Shown: positions 47,660 to 50,713 of the stretch, in pieces | How the letters are laid out: every line of letters starts with the position of its first letter | Numbering within the stretch: position 1 is the stretch's first letter | Assembly (NCBI RefSeq): GCF_003030345.1 | Contig: NZ_CP028158.1 | Coordinates: 7,502,001-7,566,000 of the forward strand | Origin: Plantactinospora sp. BC1 | Lineage (GTDB): Bacteria; Actinomycetota; Actinomycetes; Mycobacteriales; Micromonosporaceae | Reading direction: 5' to 3' | DNA length: 64,000 bases | Notes under the pieces: generated by a model | Told to the model about the DNA's origin: nothing | What the model saw: only the letters and a program-made list of their open reading frames with translations | Databases searched by the model: none | Translations under genes and position numbers: made by a program

Positions 47660-47983
47660 TCAGAGCGGGCCCCGGCCGGCCCGGAGCAGCAGCAGGGCGA
47701 GCTGGGTACCGTCGGCGCCGAGCGCCTCCCGGAACCGGTCCAGGATCTCGCGCTCCCGGGAGAGGACGAGCCGGGTGCCGCCGGAGGCCATCCGGGTCCG
47801 GCCGACCTGCTGGGAGAGCGCCGCGCGCTCCTGCCAGAGGGCGATCAGCTCACCGTCGATCTCGTCGATCCGCTCCCGCAGCCCGAGGATGTGCTGCGCG
47901 GCCTCCGGCGCGGTCGTCCCGGTCTCGGGCTCGGCGCCGTTCGCCGGAAGCTCTGCCACCTCTGCCGCCACCTCTGTCGCCAT
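47660..47983 (-). CDS. Chorismate mutase (AroQ class, small actinobacterial type)
   Basis: 107 residues, all-helical. The core LRERIDEIDGELIALWQERAALSQQVGRTRMASGGTRLVLSREREILDRFREAL holds the catalytic Arg/Lys/Glu pattern of AroQ enzymes and is close to the M. tuberculosis MtCM type. It rearranges chorismate to prephenate, the branch to Phe and Tyr; such small enzymes need activation by DAHP synthase (family knowledge). ATG 47983 has an ideal AAGGAGG site. A 160-base leader upstream has all the parts of a Tyr/Phe attenuator. Confidence 0.9.
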   Translation of the reverse strand: MATEVAAEVAELPANGAEPETGTTAPEAAQHILGLRERIDEIDGELIALWQERAALSQQVGRTRMASGGTRLVLSREREILDRFREALGADGTQLALLLLRAGRGPL

Positions 47984-48028
47984 GGGGTCCTCCTTGCCAG
48001 CTAGGCCCCCGGTGCCTGGATCCCGACG

Positions 48029-48065
48029 CGAAAAGCCCCGGGCTCCAGGAGCCCGGGGCTTTTCG
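48029..48065 (-). terminator. Attenuator terminator in the chorismate mutase leader
   Basis: On the minus strand a 16-bp GC-rich stem (48050-48065 with 48029-48044) around a five-base apex, ending in GGGGCTTTTCG, a short U-run. The apex half can alternatively pair with 48098-48111 over 14 contiguous positions (two G-U wobbles), so terminator and antiterminator exclude each other. It ends 46 bases before the chorismate mutase start codon. Confidence 0.88.
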
Positions 48066-48075
48066 TAGGTCATGT

Positions 48076-48144
48076 TCAGGCGCGACCCACGGCTGCCGGA
48101 CTCCCGGAGCCGTAGTAAAAGTAAGCCTGCGCCCGACGGATCAC
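48076..48144 (-). CDS. Tyr/Phe leader peptide of the chorismate mutase attenuator
   Basis: 22-codon frame from GTG 48144 to TGA 48076. The peptide contains the run AYFYYG: codons Tyr 48121-48123, Phe 48118-48120, Tyr 48115-48117, Tyr 48112-48114. These abut a protector hairpin (48089-48113). With charged tRNA plentiful, the ribosome moves on, the hairpin sequesters the antiterminator and the terminator forms. A ribosome stalled at these codons would melt the hairpin and allow antitermination. No ribosome site; the predicted transcript starts at the GTG (leaderless). Confidence 0.82.
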   Translation of the reverse strand: MIRRAQAYFYYGSGSPAAVGRA

Positions 48145-48151
48145 GGGTTTG

Positions 48152-48180
48152 AGTATGCCCAGCCAGCGGTGTCTTGGCAA
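48152..48180 (-). promoter_or_regulatory. Promoter of the chorismate mutase leader
   Basis: Minus strand TTGCCA (48175-48180), 17-base spacer, CATACT (48152-48157). The expected start is seven bases on, at or next to the leader-peptide GTG (48144). Confidence 0.75.
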
Positions 48181-48307
48181 GCACATCGGCGATGCCCGCG
48201 GACCGCCGCCGGAGCGCCCGGCGGGAGCGGTACCCGGGGCGGCGGAGCCGGGTACGGGCCCGGCGCAGGCGTACGTTGTCTGCCCGGCGGCATAGACTCG
48301 CGGGGCG

Positions 48308-50713
48308 ATGCATGCTCTCTTCGAACCTCCGCCGCCCTCCGTCCCTCCGGCCCCGGACGCGCCCCGGCACCGGCCGTCCGGCCCCGACCCGCAGGCCCTG
48401 CTGGCCGGGCTGAACGGGCCACAGCGGGACGCGGTGACCCACTCCGGGGCGCCGCTGCTGATCGTGGCCGGCGCCGGCTCGGGCAAGACCCGGGTGCTGA
48501 CCCACCGGATCGCCTACCTGCTCGCTGCCCGGGACGTGCATCCGGGGCAGATCATCGCGATCACCTTCACCAACAAGGCGGCCGGGGAGATGAAGGACCG
48601 GGTCGCCGCGCTGGTCGGGCCGAGAGCCCGGTTGATGTGGGTGTCGACGTTCCACTCCGCCTGCGTACGCATCCTGCGGGCCGAGCACGAGCACGCCGGG
48701 CTGAAGTCGACGTTCTCGATCTACGACGCCGACGACTCGCGCCGGCTGATGCAGATGGTCACCCGGGAGCTGGACCTCGATCCGAAGCGCTACCCGGCCC
48801 GGGGGTTGACCACCCAGGTCTCCAACCTGAAGAACGAGCTGGTCGACCCGGAGACGTTCGCCGCCCGGGCGAAGGGGCCGAACGAGCGGGCGCTGGCCGA
48901 GGCGTACACCCTCTACCAGCGGCGGCTGACCGAGGCGCACGCACTCGACTTCGACGATCTGATCATGACGACGGTGCACCTGCTCCAGTCGCACCCGCAC
49001 GTCGCCGAGAGCTACCGTCGCCGGTTCCGGCACGTACTCGTCGACGAATACCAGGACACCAACCACGCGCAGTACACCCTGGTCAAGGAGCTGGTCGGCG
49101 GTACGCCCGGGGTCGAGCCGGCCGAGCTCTGCGTGGTCGGCGACGCCGACCAGTCGATCTACGCGTTCCGGGGCGCGACGATCCGGAACATTCTGGAGTT
49201 CGAACGGGACTTCACCGACGCCCGGACGATCCTGCTGGAGCAGAACTACCGCTCCACCCAGACGATCCTGAACGCCGCCAACGCGGTGATCGAGCGGAAC
49301 AGCTCGCGCAAGCCGAAGCGGCTCTGGAGCGAGGAGGGCGCGGGGGAGCAGATCGTCGGCTACGTCGCCGACACCGAGCATGCCGAGGCGGACTGGGTGG
49401 GCCGGGAGATCGACCGGCTCTGCGACTCCGACGCGGCCCGCCCGGGCGACGTGGCGGTCTTCTACCGCACCAACGCGCAGTCCCGGGTCTTCGAAGAGGT
49501 CTTCATCCGGGTCGGGTTGCCCTACAAGGTGGTCGGCGGGGTCCGGTTCTACGAGCGCAAGGAGGTCCGGGACGCCCTGGCCTACCTCCGCGCCGTGGTC
49601 AACGACGACGACACGGTGAGCATCCGGCGGGTCCTGAACACCCCCCGCCGGGGCATCGGCGACCGGGCCGAGGCCTGCGTGGAGGCGCTGGCCACCCGGG
49701 ACCGGATCTCGTTCGGCGCCGCGCTGCGCCGGGCCGCCGAGGCGCCCGGCATCTCCACCCGGGCGGCCAACTCGATCGCCGAGTTCGTCAGCCTGCTCGA
49801 CGGGTTGCGGGAGCTGGCCGAGACCGCCCTGCCGGAGGAGGTGCTGGAGGCGGCCCTCACCCGCTCCGGCTACCTCGGCGAGCTGGAGGAGAGCATCGAC
49901 CCGCAGGACGCCGGCCGGGTGGAGAACCTCCAGGAGCTGGTCAGCGTCGCCCGGGAGTACACCGAACGGGTGGAGGCGCTGGCCGAGGAGGGCGGTCCGG
50001 GTGCCACCCTGGCCGGCTTCCTGGAGCAGGTGGCGCTGGTCGCCGACGCCGACCAGGTGCCGTCGGACGACCCCGACCACCAGGGCGTGGTCACCCTGAT
50101 GACCCTGCACACCGCCAAGGGGCTGGAGTTCCCGGTGGTCTTCCTGACCGGCCTGGAGGACGGCGTCTTCCCGCACCTGCGGGCGCTCGGCGACAACCGG
50201 GAGCTGGAGGAGGAGCGCCGGCTGGCGTACGTCGGGATCACCCGGGCCCGCAAGCGGCTCTACCTCTCCCGGGCGGTGACCCGGTCGGCCTGGGGGCAGC
50301 CGTCCTACAACCCGCCGTCCCGGTTCGTCGACGAGCTGCCGGGCGACCTGGTCCGCTGGGAACGCACCGGGGCCGCCTACACCTCGTGGTCGGGGACCGG
50401 CGGCGGGGTGGGTGGCCGGTCCGGCTCCGAGGACCGCTCCGGCGCCTACCGGGGCGGCGGCTTCTCCGGGGGTACGCCGAAGGCCGCCCAGCTAGCCTCG
50501 CGGCTCGGCATCGACGGCAGTCGGCTCAGTACGGCGAGCGAGTTGAAGCAGCCGCCCAAGGTCGCCGCCGGGGATCGGGTCAACCACCAGCGCTACGGTC
50601 TCGGCCGGGTGCTGGCGGTCGAGGGGCACGGTTCGGGTGCCCGGGCGCAGATCGACTTCGGTGACCAGACGCTCTGGCTGGTGCTCCGGCACGCCCCGAT
50701 CGACAAGCTCTGA
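48308..50713 (+). CDS. pcrA: UvrD/PcrA-type ATP-dependent DNA helicase
   Basis: 801 residues, superfamily 1A. Motif I AGAGSGKT near residues 54-61, motif Ia FTNKAAGEM, motif II VDEYQDTN, motif III GDADQSIYAFRGA, motif IV LEQNYRST, motif V TLHTAKGLEF and motif VI YVGITRARKRL. The C-terminal tail ends in a Tudor-like PcrA domain (VAAGDRVNHQRYGLGRVLAVEGHGSGARAQIDFG). It unwinds DNA in repair and replication-conflict resolution. ATG 48308 has no strong ribosome site; TAGACT (48293-48298) ends nine bases before it. Confidence 0.96.
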   Translation: MHALFEPPPPSVPPAPDAPRHRPSGPDPQALLAGLNGPQRDAVTHSGAPLLIVAGAGSGKTRVLTHRIAYLLAARDVHPGQIIAITFTNKAAGEMKDRVAALVGPRARLMWVSTFHSACVRILRAEHEHAGLKSTFSIYDADDSRRLMQMVTRELDLDPKRYPARGLTTQVSNLKNELVDPETFAARAKGPNERALAEAYTLYQRRLTEAHALDFDDLIMTTVHLLQSHPHVAESYRRRFRHVLVDEYQDTNHAQYTLVKELVGGTPGVEPAELCVVGDADQSIYAFRGATIRNILEFERDFTDARTILLEQNYRSTQTILNAANAVIERNSSRKPKRLWSEEGAGEQIVGYVADTEHAEADWVGREIDRLCDSDAARPGDVAVFYRTNAQSRVFEEVFIRVGLPYKVVGGVRFYERKEVRDALAYLRAVVNDDDTVSIRRVLNTPRRGIGDRAEACVEALATRDRISFGAALRRAAEAPGISTRAANSIAEFVSLLDGLRELAETALPEEVLEAALTRSGYLGELEESIDPQDAGRVENLQELVSVAREYTERVEALAEEGGPGATLAGFLEQVALVADADQVPSDDPDHQGVVTLMTLHTAKGLEFPVVFLTGLEDGVFPHLRALGDNRELEEERRLAYVGITRARKRLYLSRAVTRSAWGQPSYNPPSRFVDELPGDLVRWERTGAAYTSWSGTGGGVGGRSGSEDRSGAYRGGGFSGGTPKAAQLASRLGIDGSRLSTASELKQPPKVAAGDRVNHQRYGLGRVLAVEGHGSGARAQIDFGDQTLWLVLRHAPIDKL

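Follow-up and report, generated by a model that had tools for sequence, protein, structure and literature searches.

The window, by which we mean the whole stretch of 64,000 nt that was analysed, corresponds to positions 7502001-7566000 of the 8.33-Mb, single-contig genome of Plantactinospora sp. BC1. It carries on its minus strand a gene for a type II chorismate mutase, recognised by its match to PF01817 and by two further profile models (Table 1). The closest solved relative of the enzyme is Rv0948c (2qbv, E 5.5e-20), whose type, like that of the enzyme itself, we take to be AroQ-delta, and its best named relatives are found in Plantactinospora mayteni and P. endophytica, with 94% and 91% identity over the matched part. 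The bifunctional model NF007910 gave 25.7 bits against a cut-off of 577, indicating that the mutase is monofunctional. Chorismate mutase catalyses the first step of the Phe/Tyr branch and leads to Phe and Tyr only; DAHP synthase catalyses the first step of the whole aromatic pathway and supplies Phe, Tyr and Trp. A chorismate mutase was present in 198 of 200 Micromonosporaceae genomes. Upstream of the mutase gene, a UvrD-like helicase gene (48308-50713, plus strand) is transcribed divergently. A terminator is positioned between the promoter of a short leader peptide gene and the mutase gene, and because the neighbouring uvrD-like gene is divergent, this terminator has no evident customer other than the mutase gene.

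Table 1. Features of the leader and mutase gene in the window, and aromatic leaders found ahead of DAHP synthase genes in other genomes
Feature	Position	Strand	Evidence
-35 box TTGCCA	48175..48180	minus	promoter scan; CTTG-type -35 in many, not all, relatives (alignment by eye)
-10 box CATACT	48152..48157	minus	promoter scan; CATANT kept in relatives
Leader peptide gene, 22 codons and stop, GTG start	48076..48144	minus	sequence, conservation
Regulatory codons TAC TTT TAC TAC (Tyr Phe Tyr Tyr)	48112..48123	minus	sequence; conserved
Protector hairpin P1 (48114-48108/48094-48088, inner 48107-48104/48099-48096)	48088..48114	minus	sequence, covariation
Antiterminator 5' strand GGAGUCCGG, pairs with 48056-48048	48096..48104	minus	covariation
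Stem P2 (48090-48084/48071-48065), within the antiterminator, brackets the leader stop	48065..48090	minus	covariation alignment
Antiterminator 3' strand CCGGGCUCC, also the upper part of the 5' arm of T	48048..48056	minus	covariation
Intrinsic terminator T, 18-nt arms, U4	48029..48065	minus	inverted repeat; covariation
Shine-Dalgarno-like AAGGAGGA of the mutase gene, lying beyond the switching region	47988..47995	minus	sequence
Chorismate mutase, presumed AroQ-delta type, 107 aa	47660..47983	minus	PF01817; NF005894 and TIGR01808 above cut-off
Phe/Tyr/Trp-rich leader before DAHP synthase, locus L131 (phylum, outside class)	1501-1624
Phe/Tyr/Trp-rich leader before DAHP synthase, locus L132 (phylum, outside class)	1501-1629
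Phe/Tyr/Trp-rich leader before DAHP synthase, locus L140 (phylum, outside class)	1501-1626

The original prediction had placed on this strand a promoter, a 22-codon leader with a Tyr-Phe-Tyr-Tyr run, a protector hairpin (48089-48094 with 48108-48113, inner CCGG/CCGG) and a terminator ending in UUUU, and we found each of them where it had been located. The two promoter boxes are separated by 17 nt and constitute the sole promoter-like site on either strand of 47900-48400 (shuffle mean 0.0). The GTG codon at 48144 lies 7 nt past the -10 box and opens a reading frame for the peptide VIRRAQAYFYYGSGSPAAVGRA, with the stop codon at 48078-48076. As had also been pointed out, the regulatory amino acids agree with the enzyme: Tyr and Phe codons precede a gene identified as a chorismate mutase by profile models, and by textbook knowledge these amino acids are the products of its pathway, a correspondence by which attenuators are recognised.

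The leader RNA from 48144 to 48027 folds at -72.5 kcal/mol, compared with -46.8 (s.d. 3.7) for 200 dinucleotide shuffles (z = -7.0). Four pairings matter in this RNA, namely the protector (P1), the antiterminator (AT), the stem P2 and the terminator (T), of which P2 is additional to the elements proposed originally. In T, all 18 positions of 48065-48048 are complementary to 48046-48029. Its U tract is only four long and lies, paired, inside the 3' arm; a simple terminator scan reported none in the region, because the scan requires 5 T in 8 and the site does not have them. The stem of P1 is formed by ACGGCU/AGCCGU together with CCGG/CCGG. Because P2 lies inside AT and brackets the stop codon, AT and P2 together make one interrupted helix.

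We read the upstream regions of 115 Micromonosporaceae loci, which remained from 117 after L037 and L038, belonging to other mutase families, were taken out of all family counts; every conservation and covariation figure given below counts related sequences and not independent events. A strict filter found the leader in 112 of the 115 loci and missed altered leader forms in L063, L080 and L084. The hexamer CATANT was followed by a start codon in 113/115 loci (some genomes being taken twice, and 3-11 nt being allowed), at a distance of 6 nt in 34 and 7 nt in 79, and the start codon was GTG in 109 and ATG in 4. By eye, the exceptions L070 and L071 have different hexamers at the -10 place. This narrow spacing suggests that the leader peptide gene is probably without an untranslated leader. 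Such an arrangement had been called unusual in the original prediction, a view that does not hold for actinobacteria, where leaderless leader peptides are usual: leuL, trpL, ilvL, metL and thrL of Streptomyces lividans are leaderless in the sections of the report available to us (PMC8079986).

Conservation of the Tyr/Phe codons had been suggested as a check, and the codons proved to be conserved. Once identical sequences were dropped, an aromatic codon stood directly before GG in 84 of 87 distinct leaders. Among these anchored leaders, the last aromatic position was Tyr in 83/84, and at least three of the last five codons were Tyr or Phe, again in 83/84. The stop codon followed the last aromatic codon at 33 nt in 71/84, at 30 nt in 10/84 and at 27 nt in 3/84. 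Trp was present in 1/87 leaders, as expected for the Phe/Tyr branch. When the start was set by the promoter alone and the anchor, separately, by TAYGG alone, the two were in frame in 84 of 85 distinct loci, four loci having failed the pattern. A short leader reading frame with runs of regulatory codons, one of the marks of an attenuator, is hence a feature of the family, and its conservation in relatives places the element beyond chance. The choice of codon also differs from that in flanking reading frames: TTT makes up 125/167 Phe codons in the 87 leaders and 16/1072 in 70 flanking GC-rich reading frames, so the Phe sensor is mostly a rare Phe codon. For Tyr, TAT accounts for 30/210 codons in the leaders versus 43/804 in the flanking frames. 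The Phe codon of the leader in the window, at 48120-48118, is TTT. The leaders of L024 and L032 are longer, at 28 and 27 codons; the start is separated from the aromatic codons by five to seven additional codons, and the regulatory part is unchanged.

Covariation of the alternative pairings, which the original prediction had also proposed to examine, was observed for T, P1 and the combined helix of AT and P2. In 93 Micromonosporaceae sequences, 90.3% of the cells of T were paired, with 78 cells showing two-sided change, and the corresponding values for P1 were 92.4% and 14; for neither did any of 500 shuffles reach the count of two-sided cells. The number of pairs with two-sided change, which by the shuffle comparison is a less telling statistic than the cell count, was reached by 2/500 shuffles for T and by 74/500 for P1. 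For AT with P2, we used a 47-row alignment, A2, in which terminator loops are better aligned; it was thinned at 90% similarity (49 sequences kept, 47 aligned) and leaves out L024 and L032, with their long leader insert, as well as L077, L080 and L084. Here 92.2% of the cells were paired and 19 were two-sided, a count reached by 0/500 shuffles; for pairs with two-sided change, 74/500 shuffles attained the observed number. Within this helix, P2 was 92.5% paired, with two-sided change in one of its seven pairs, and is therefore hardly tested by covariation. The AT pair 60/120 of A2 occurs as A-U, U-A, C-G and G-C on separate branches of the mutase gene tree, which suggests at least three two-sided changes, the tree being a quick one with strong support on only 4 of 44 inner branches. 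Unpaired rows were counted at 10/46 for pair 59/121, 5/46 for pair 60/120 (rows with letters) and 7/47 for pair 61/119. Further features by which attenuators are known were found in Micromonosporaceae, namely a terminator hairpin between leader and gene that is conserved by compensatory change, a protector overlapping the regulatory codons, and a mutually exclusive antiterminator with compensatory change. A duplex-swap test between groups, for which 148 loci were named and 102 used (18 missed, duplicates dropped), found the strand's own partner to be stronger in 43/60 and 4/12 cases in Micromonosporaceae and in 23/23 in a second family, f4 (see below); because palindromic, GC-rich strands also pair with partners from other groups, the test was discriminating only in f4, and we did not use it as support.

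Taken with the folding of stalled forms described below, codon conservation and compensatory pairing support the classical architecture of the original prediction, and we consider it very probable that a ribosome-mediated transcription attenuator sensing charged Tyr-tRNA and Phe-tRNA controls the chorismate mutase gene. Transcription would start at or adjoining GTG 48144, as the fixed spacing to the -10 box suggests, and a ribosome would begin to translate the leaderless peptide gene. A shortage of Tyr or Phe would make the ribosome stall on 48123-48112 and cover the 5' arm of the protector. As long as the terminator still lacks its 3' arm, 48104-48096 could then pair with 48056-48048, the two strands being zipped together by P2; with the antiterminator formed, the polymerase would read into the chorismate mutase gene. 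When Tyr and Phe are plentiful, the ribosome would reach the stop codon, where it covers both P2 and the protector's 3' arm, and the terminator would form. If there is no translation, the protector would form and the terminator would win again.

Counted from the first base of the codon in the A site, a ribosome reaches about 12 nt downstream. With this value, a ribosome stalled on any of the first three aromatic codons covers the 5' arm of P1, whereas 48104-48096 stays almost entirely free. When the free RNA up to 48047 was folded, AT with P2 was the optimum for stalls on codons -3 to -1 (-32.4, -32.4 and -31.7 kcal/mol). For the last aromatic codon, the stalled RNA folded into a shortened AT form (-23.9 kcal/mol). 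With the ribosome at the stop codon, T alone folds (-34.4 kcal/mol). The whole RNA after the stall folds into the terminator together with P1-like and P2-like stems (-54.6 kcal/mol). Because the antiterminator is the less stable of the two once the terminator is complete, AT must form first, and the switch would be kinetic, as in classical attenuators.

We weighed this model against three alternatives, one of which differs only in the antiterminator. The original prediction had proposed attenuation through a 14-position pairing of 48111-48098 with 48054-48041. This pairing exists in Plantactinospora sp. BC1, with two G-U pairs among the 14, its energy of -27.6 is slightly better than the -25.2 of the shorter form with P2, and its inner half is conserved, with 94.5% of cells paired versus 74.5% in the outer half. 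However, the outer half is without covariation: the outer six pairs were paired in 77.0% of cells and had a single two-sided cell, which 454 of 500 shuffles matched, for which reason we rejected it. With the footprint assumed above, these outer pairs would also lie under a ribosome positioned on the last two aromatic codons. It is thus unlikely that the long pairing is the working form, and the alignments support 48104-48096/48056-48048 around P2 as the antiterminator.

The other two alternatives dispense with attenuation by a ribosome. If the leader were a conserved small protein gene, with a functional peptide and an ordinary terminator behind it, the strong conservation of the peptide end GSGSPAAVGRA in most genera would be readily understood. 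However, this end coincides with P1 and P2, and in four genera (g5, g12, g14 and g15) it is read in another frame (GTDRPSRRSSR, GTGCPGRRSR) while P1, P2, T and the position of the stop codon are retained. Judging from these genera, it is the RNA, not the peptide, that is conserved behind the stall codons. A small protein gene would also put the mutase gene behind a terminator in a region with one promoter-like site, and we regard this explanation as very unlikely. The strong structure and conservation of the leader would equally suit a ligand-binding RNA, such as a T-box or a riboswitch, with a chance reading frame. However, no Rfam family reached its gathering threshold in the 64,000-nt window, and a permissive scan of 47900-48300 gave 13 matches that were all below gathering scores, the best being to F6, an sRNA family, opposite the terminator on the plus strand (31.4 bits versus 46). 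A T-box or known riboswitch was rejected on these grounds, and a chance reading frame would hardly keep its Tyr/Phe codons in frame with a promoter-defined start as regularly as observed, making a ligand-binding RNA very unlikely.

Leaders resembling this one also occur outside Micromonosporaceae. A covariance model of the element, R1, matched 34 of 396 genomes of the phylum searched under strict filters, at E 0.01 or better. Eleven of the 34 matches were full-length, with E 5.9e-9 or better, and fell in family f4, which is Streptomyces-like by our judgement. Within the class sample of 296 genomes, 26 genomes of f4 were examined (28 loci, two genomes being taken twice), and all 26 had a leader, for example MLTHPTFLFTYGNRPTGCHGRAA, with its start 6-7 nt after a -10-like box, the criterion being the motif F/Y..YG together with a -10-like hexamer 5-8 nt ahead of the start. 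A stricter aromatic-codon filter missed the f4 leaders of L171 and L175, and the weak match G840 is outside the f4 count. In this family, P1 was 92.0% paired with no two-sided change, and T was 97.8% paired with one two-sided change, which 37/500 shuffles reached. AT, in the register of Micromonosporaceae, was 80.6% paired and not above shuffles (58/500); the strands CGGCCC and GGGCCG were present in 23/26 and 21/26, and a one-base alignment shift may partly account for the low pairing. A few f4 leaders before the mutase gene hold Trp (L179, L180).

In eight further families, a short reading frame with two adjacent Tyr/Phe codons on a hairpin was found in 25 of 37 loci, compared with an expectation of 0.16 from 40 shuffles per locus (L199 was left out, its contig being too short). 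The counts by family were 16/18 in f91, 3/10 in f2, 1/2 in f102, 1/3 in f87 and 1/1 each in f76, f94, f85 and f105. Similar leaders thus occur in ten families of the sample, several of them on one positive locus each. The mutase of f2 is close to Rv0948c, and the leader was found there in 3/3 loci examined of genus g45 and in 0/7 loci of genera g46-g48. By eye, L186 and L189 (g46) have at the same place a short reading frame with a possibly leaderless start and without an aromatic run, which may be a decayed leader. A UvrD-like gene lay in the stored flank of 17/35 and 28/59 Micromonosporaceae loci, 6/10 in f2, 0/26 in f4 and 0/18 in f91, a hint, and because the flanks are short only a hint, that the attenuator goes with the mutase gene rather than with the neighbour gene.

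Outside the class, three R1 matches revealed the leaders MKRYFWFFGTSGSPEADAS, MNGYFGFWFFYGGDSPA and MRDYFWFYGTSGSPEADAR, which hold Trp codons; behind each of them come a hairpin resembling a terminator and then a gene for DAHP synthase. These three were the aromatic leaders among twelve weak matches inspected outside Micromonosporaceae and f4; the other nine resemble terminators or coding sequence, and we left them out of the count. In the genome of Plantactinospora sp. BC1, the best R1 match besides the site and its reverse strand had E 1.3. Two genes for type II DAHP synthase lie in this genome at a distance of about 20 kb (G000:C1:7875408-7876496 and 7896451-7897734), and no short reading frame rich in Tyr, Phe or Trp was seen in the 500 nt upstream of the DAHP synthase or prephenate dehydratase genes found in it. 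One possible account of this distribution, which we offer tentatively and with more doubt than confidence, is that one aromatic attenuator arose early in the actinobacteria and was inherited or re-used throughout the phylum, its codons matching the branch under control: Phe, Tyr and Trp before DAHP synthase outside the class, and Phe and Tyr before the AroQ-delta mutase in a large part of the class, where GC-rich genomes would have retained the rare UUU to sense Phe.

The aroR-aroF attenuator of Corynebacterium glutamicum was reportedly described by Neshat et al. in 2014. As far as the available sections of the reports go, it is a leader ahead of DAHP synthase, and like the leader described here it is an actinobacterial leader, with Phe-Tyr-Phe, on an aromatic pathway gene (PMC11802643, PMC4046766). 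It differs in its target, which is chorismate mutase here by the profile models. In pheL-pheA of Escherichia coli, a Phe leader precedes the gene for chorismate mutase-prephenate dehydratase, so that in both systems codons for a product amino acid stand in a leader before a chorismate mutase gene and control is by charged tRNA (PMC11802643, in part). By description, the present system is set apart from pheL-pheA by its monofunctional mutase, its combination of Tyr and Phe codons and the probable lack of an untranslated leader. The leaders of Streptomyces lividans resemble ours as leaderless peptide genes with attenuator hairpins, whereas the list of eight in the accessible part of that report includes no Tyr/Phe leader (PMC8079986). 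Similarly, uORFC-13-1 before aroF of Acholeplasma is a Phe-coding upstream frame with a terminator on an aromatic gene, but Acholeplasma is not an actinobacterium, the gene is another one and a ribosome binding site is present (PMC8632094, in part). Actinobacterial leaders for Trp, Leu, Ile and others have already been described (PMC1262725, PMC8079986, both in part). In the sections at hand, Seliverstov et al. (2005) reported classical attenuators, as ours would be, with Trp leaders in Corynebacterium and Streptomyces. Their candidates concern Trp, Cys and Leu genes, together with a T-box of Ile-tRNA synthetase, and for the pathways of other amino acids they report no conserved structures (PMC1262725).

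The original prediction knew of no description of such an attenuator for this gene, and we likewise recognised none before a chorismate mutase gene in the literature searched, which is weak evidence because subscription journals were thinly covered. The word "chorismate" is absent from the main text of PMC8079986 and from the portions of PMC4046766, PMC2965389, PMC4833913, PMC10272879, PMC8632094 and PMC11109978 that were accessible. The kind of attenuator is known from pheL-pheA and aroR-aroF, and its target gene and its spread look new. The leader points to a Tyr/Phe-responsive switch on an aromatic branch-point enzyme in a group rich in antibiotic producers. If this is true, published lists can lack a leader peptide that is conserved, and the switch would help to control how much precursor is available for natural products derived from Tyr and Phe.
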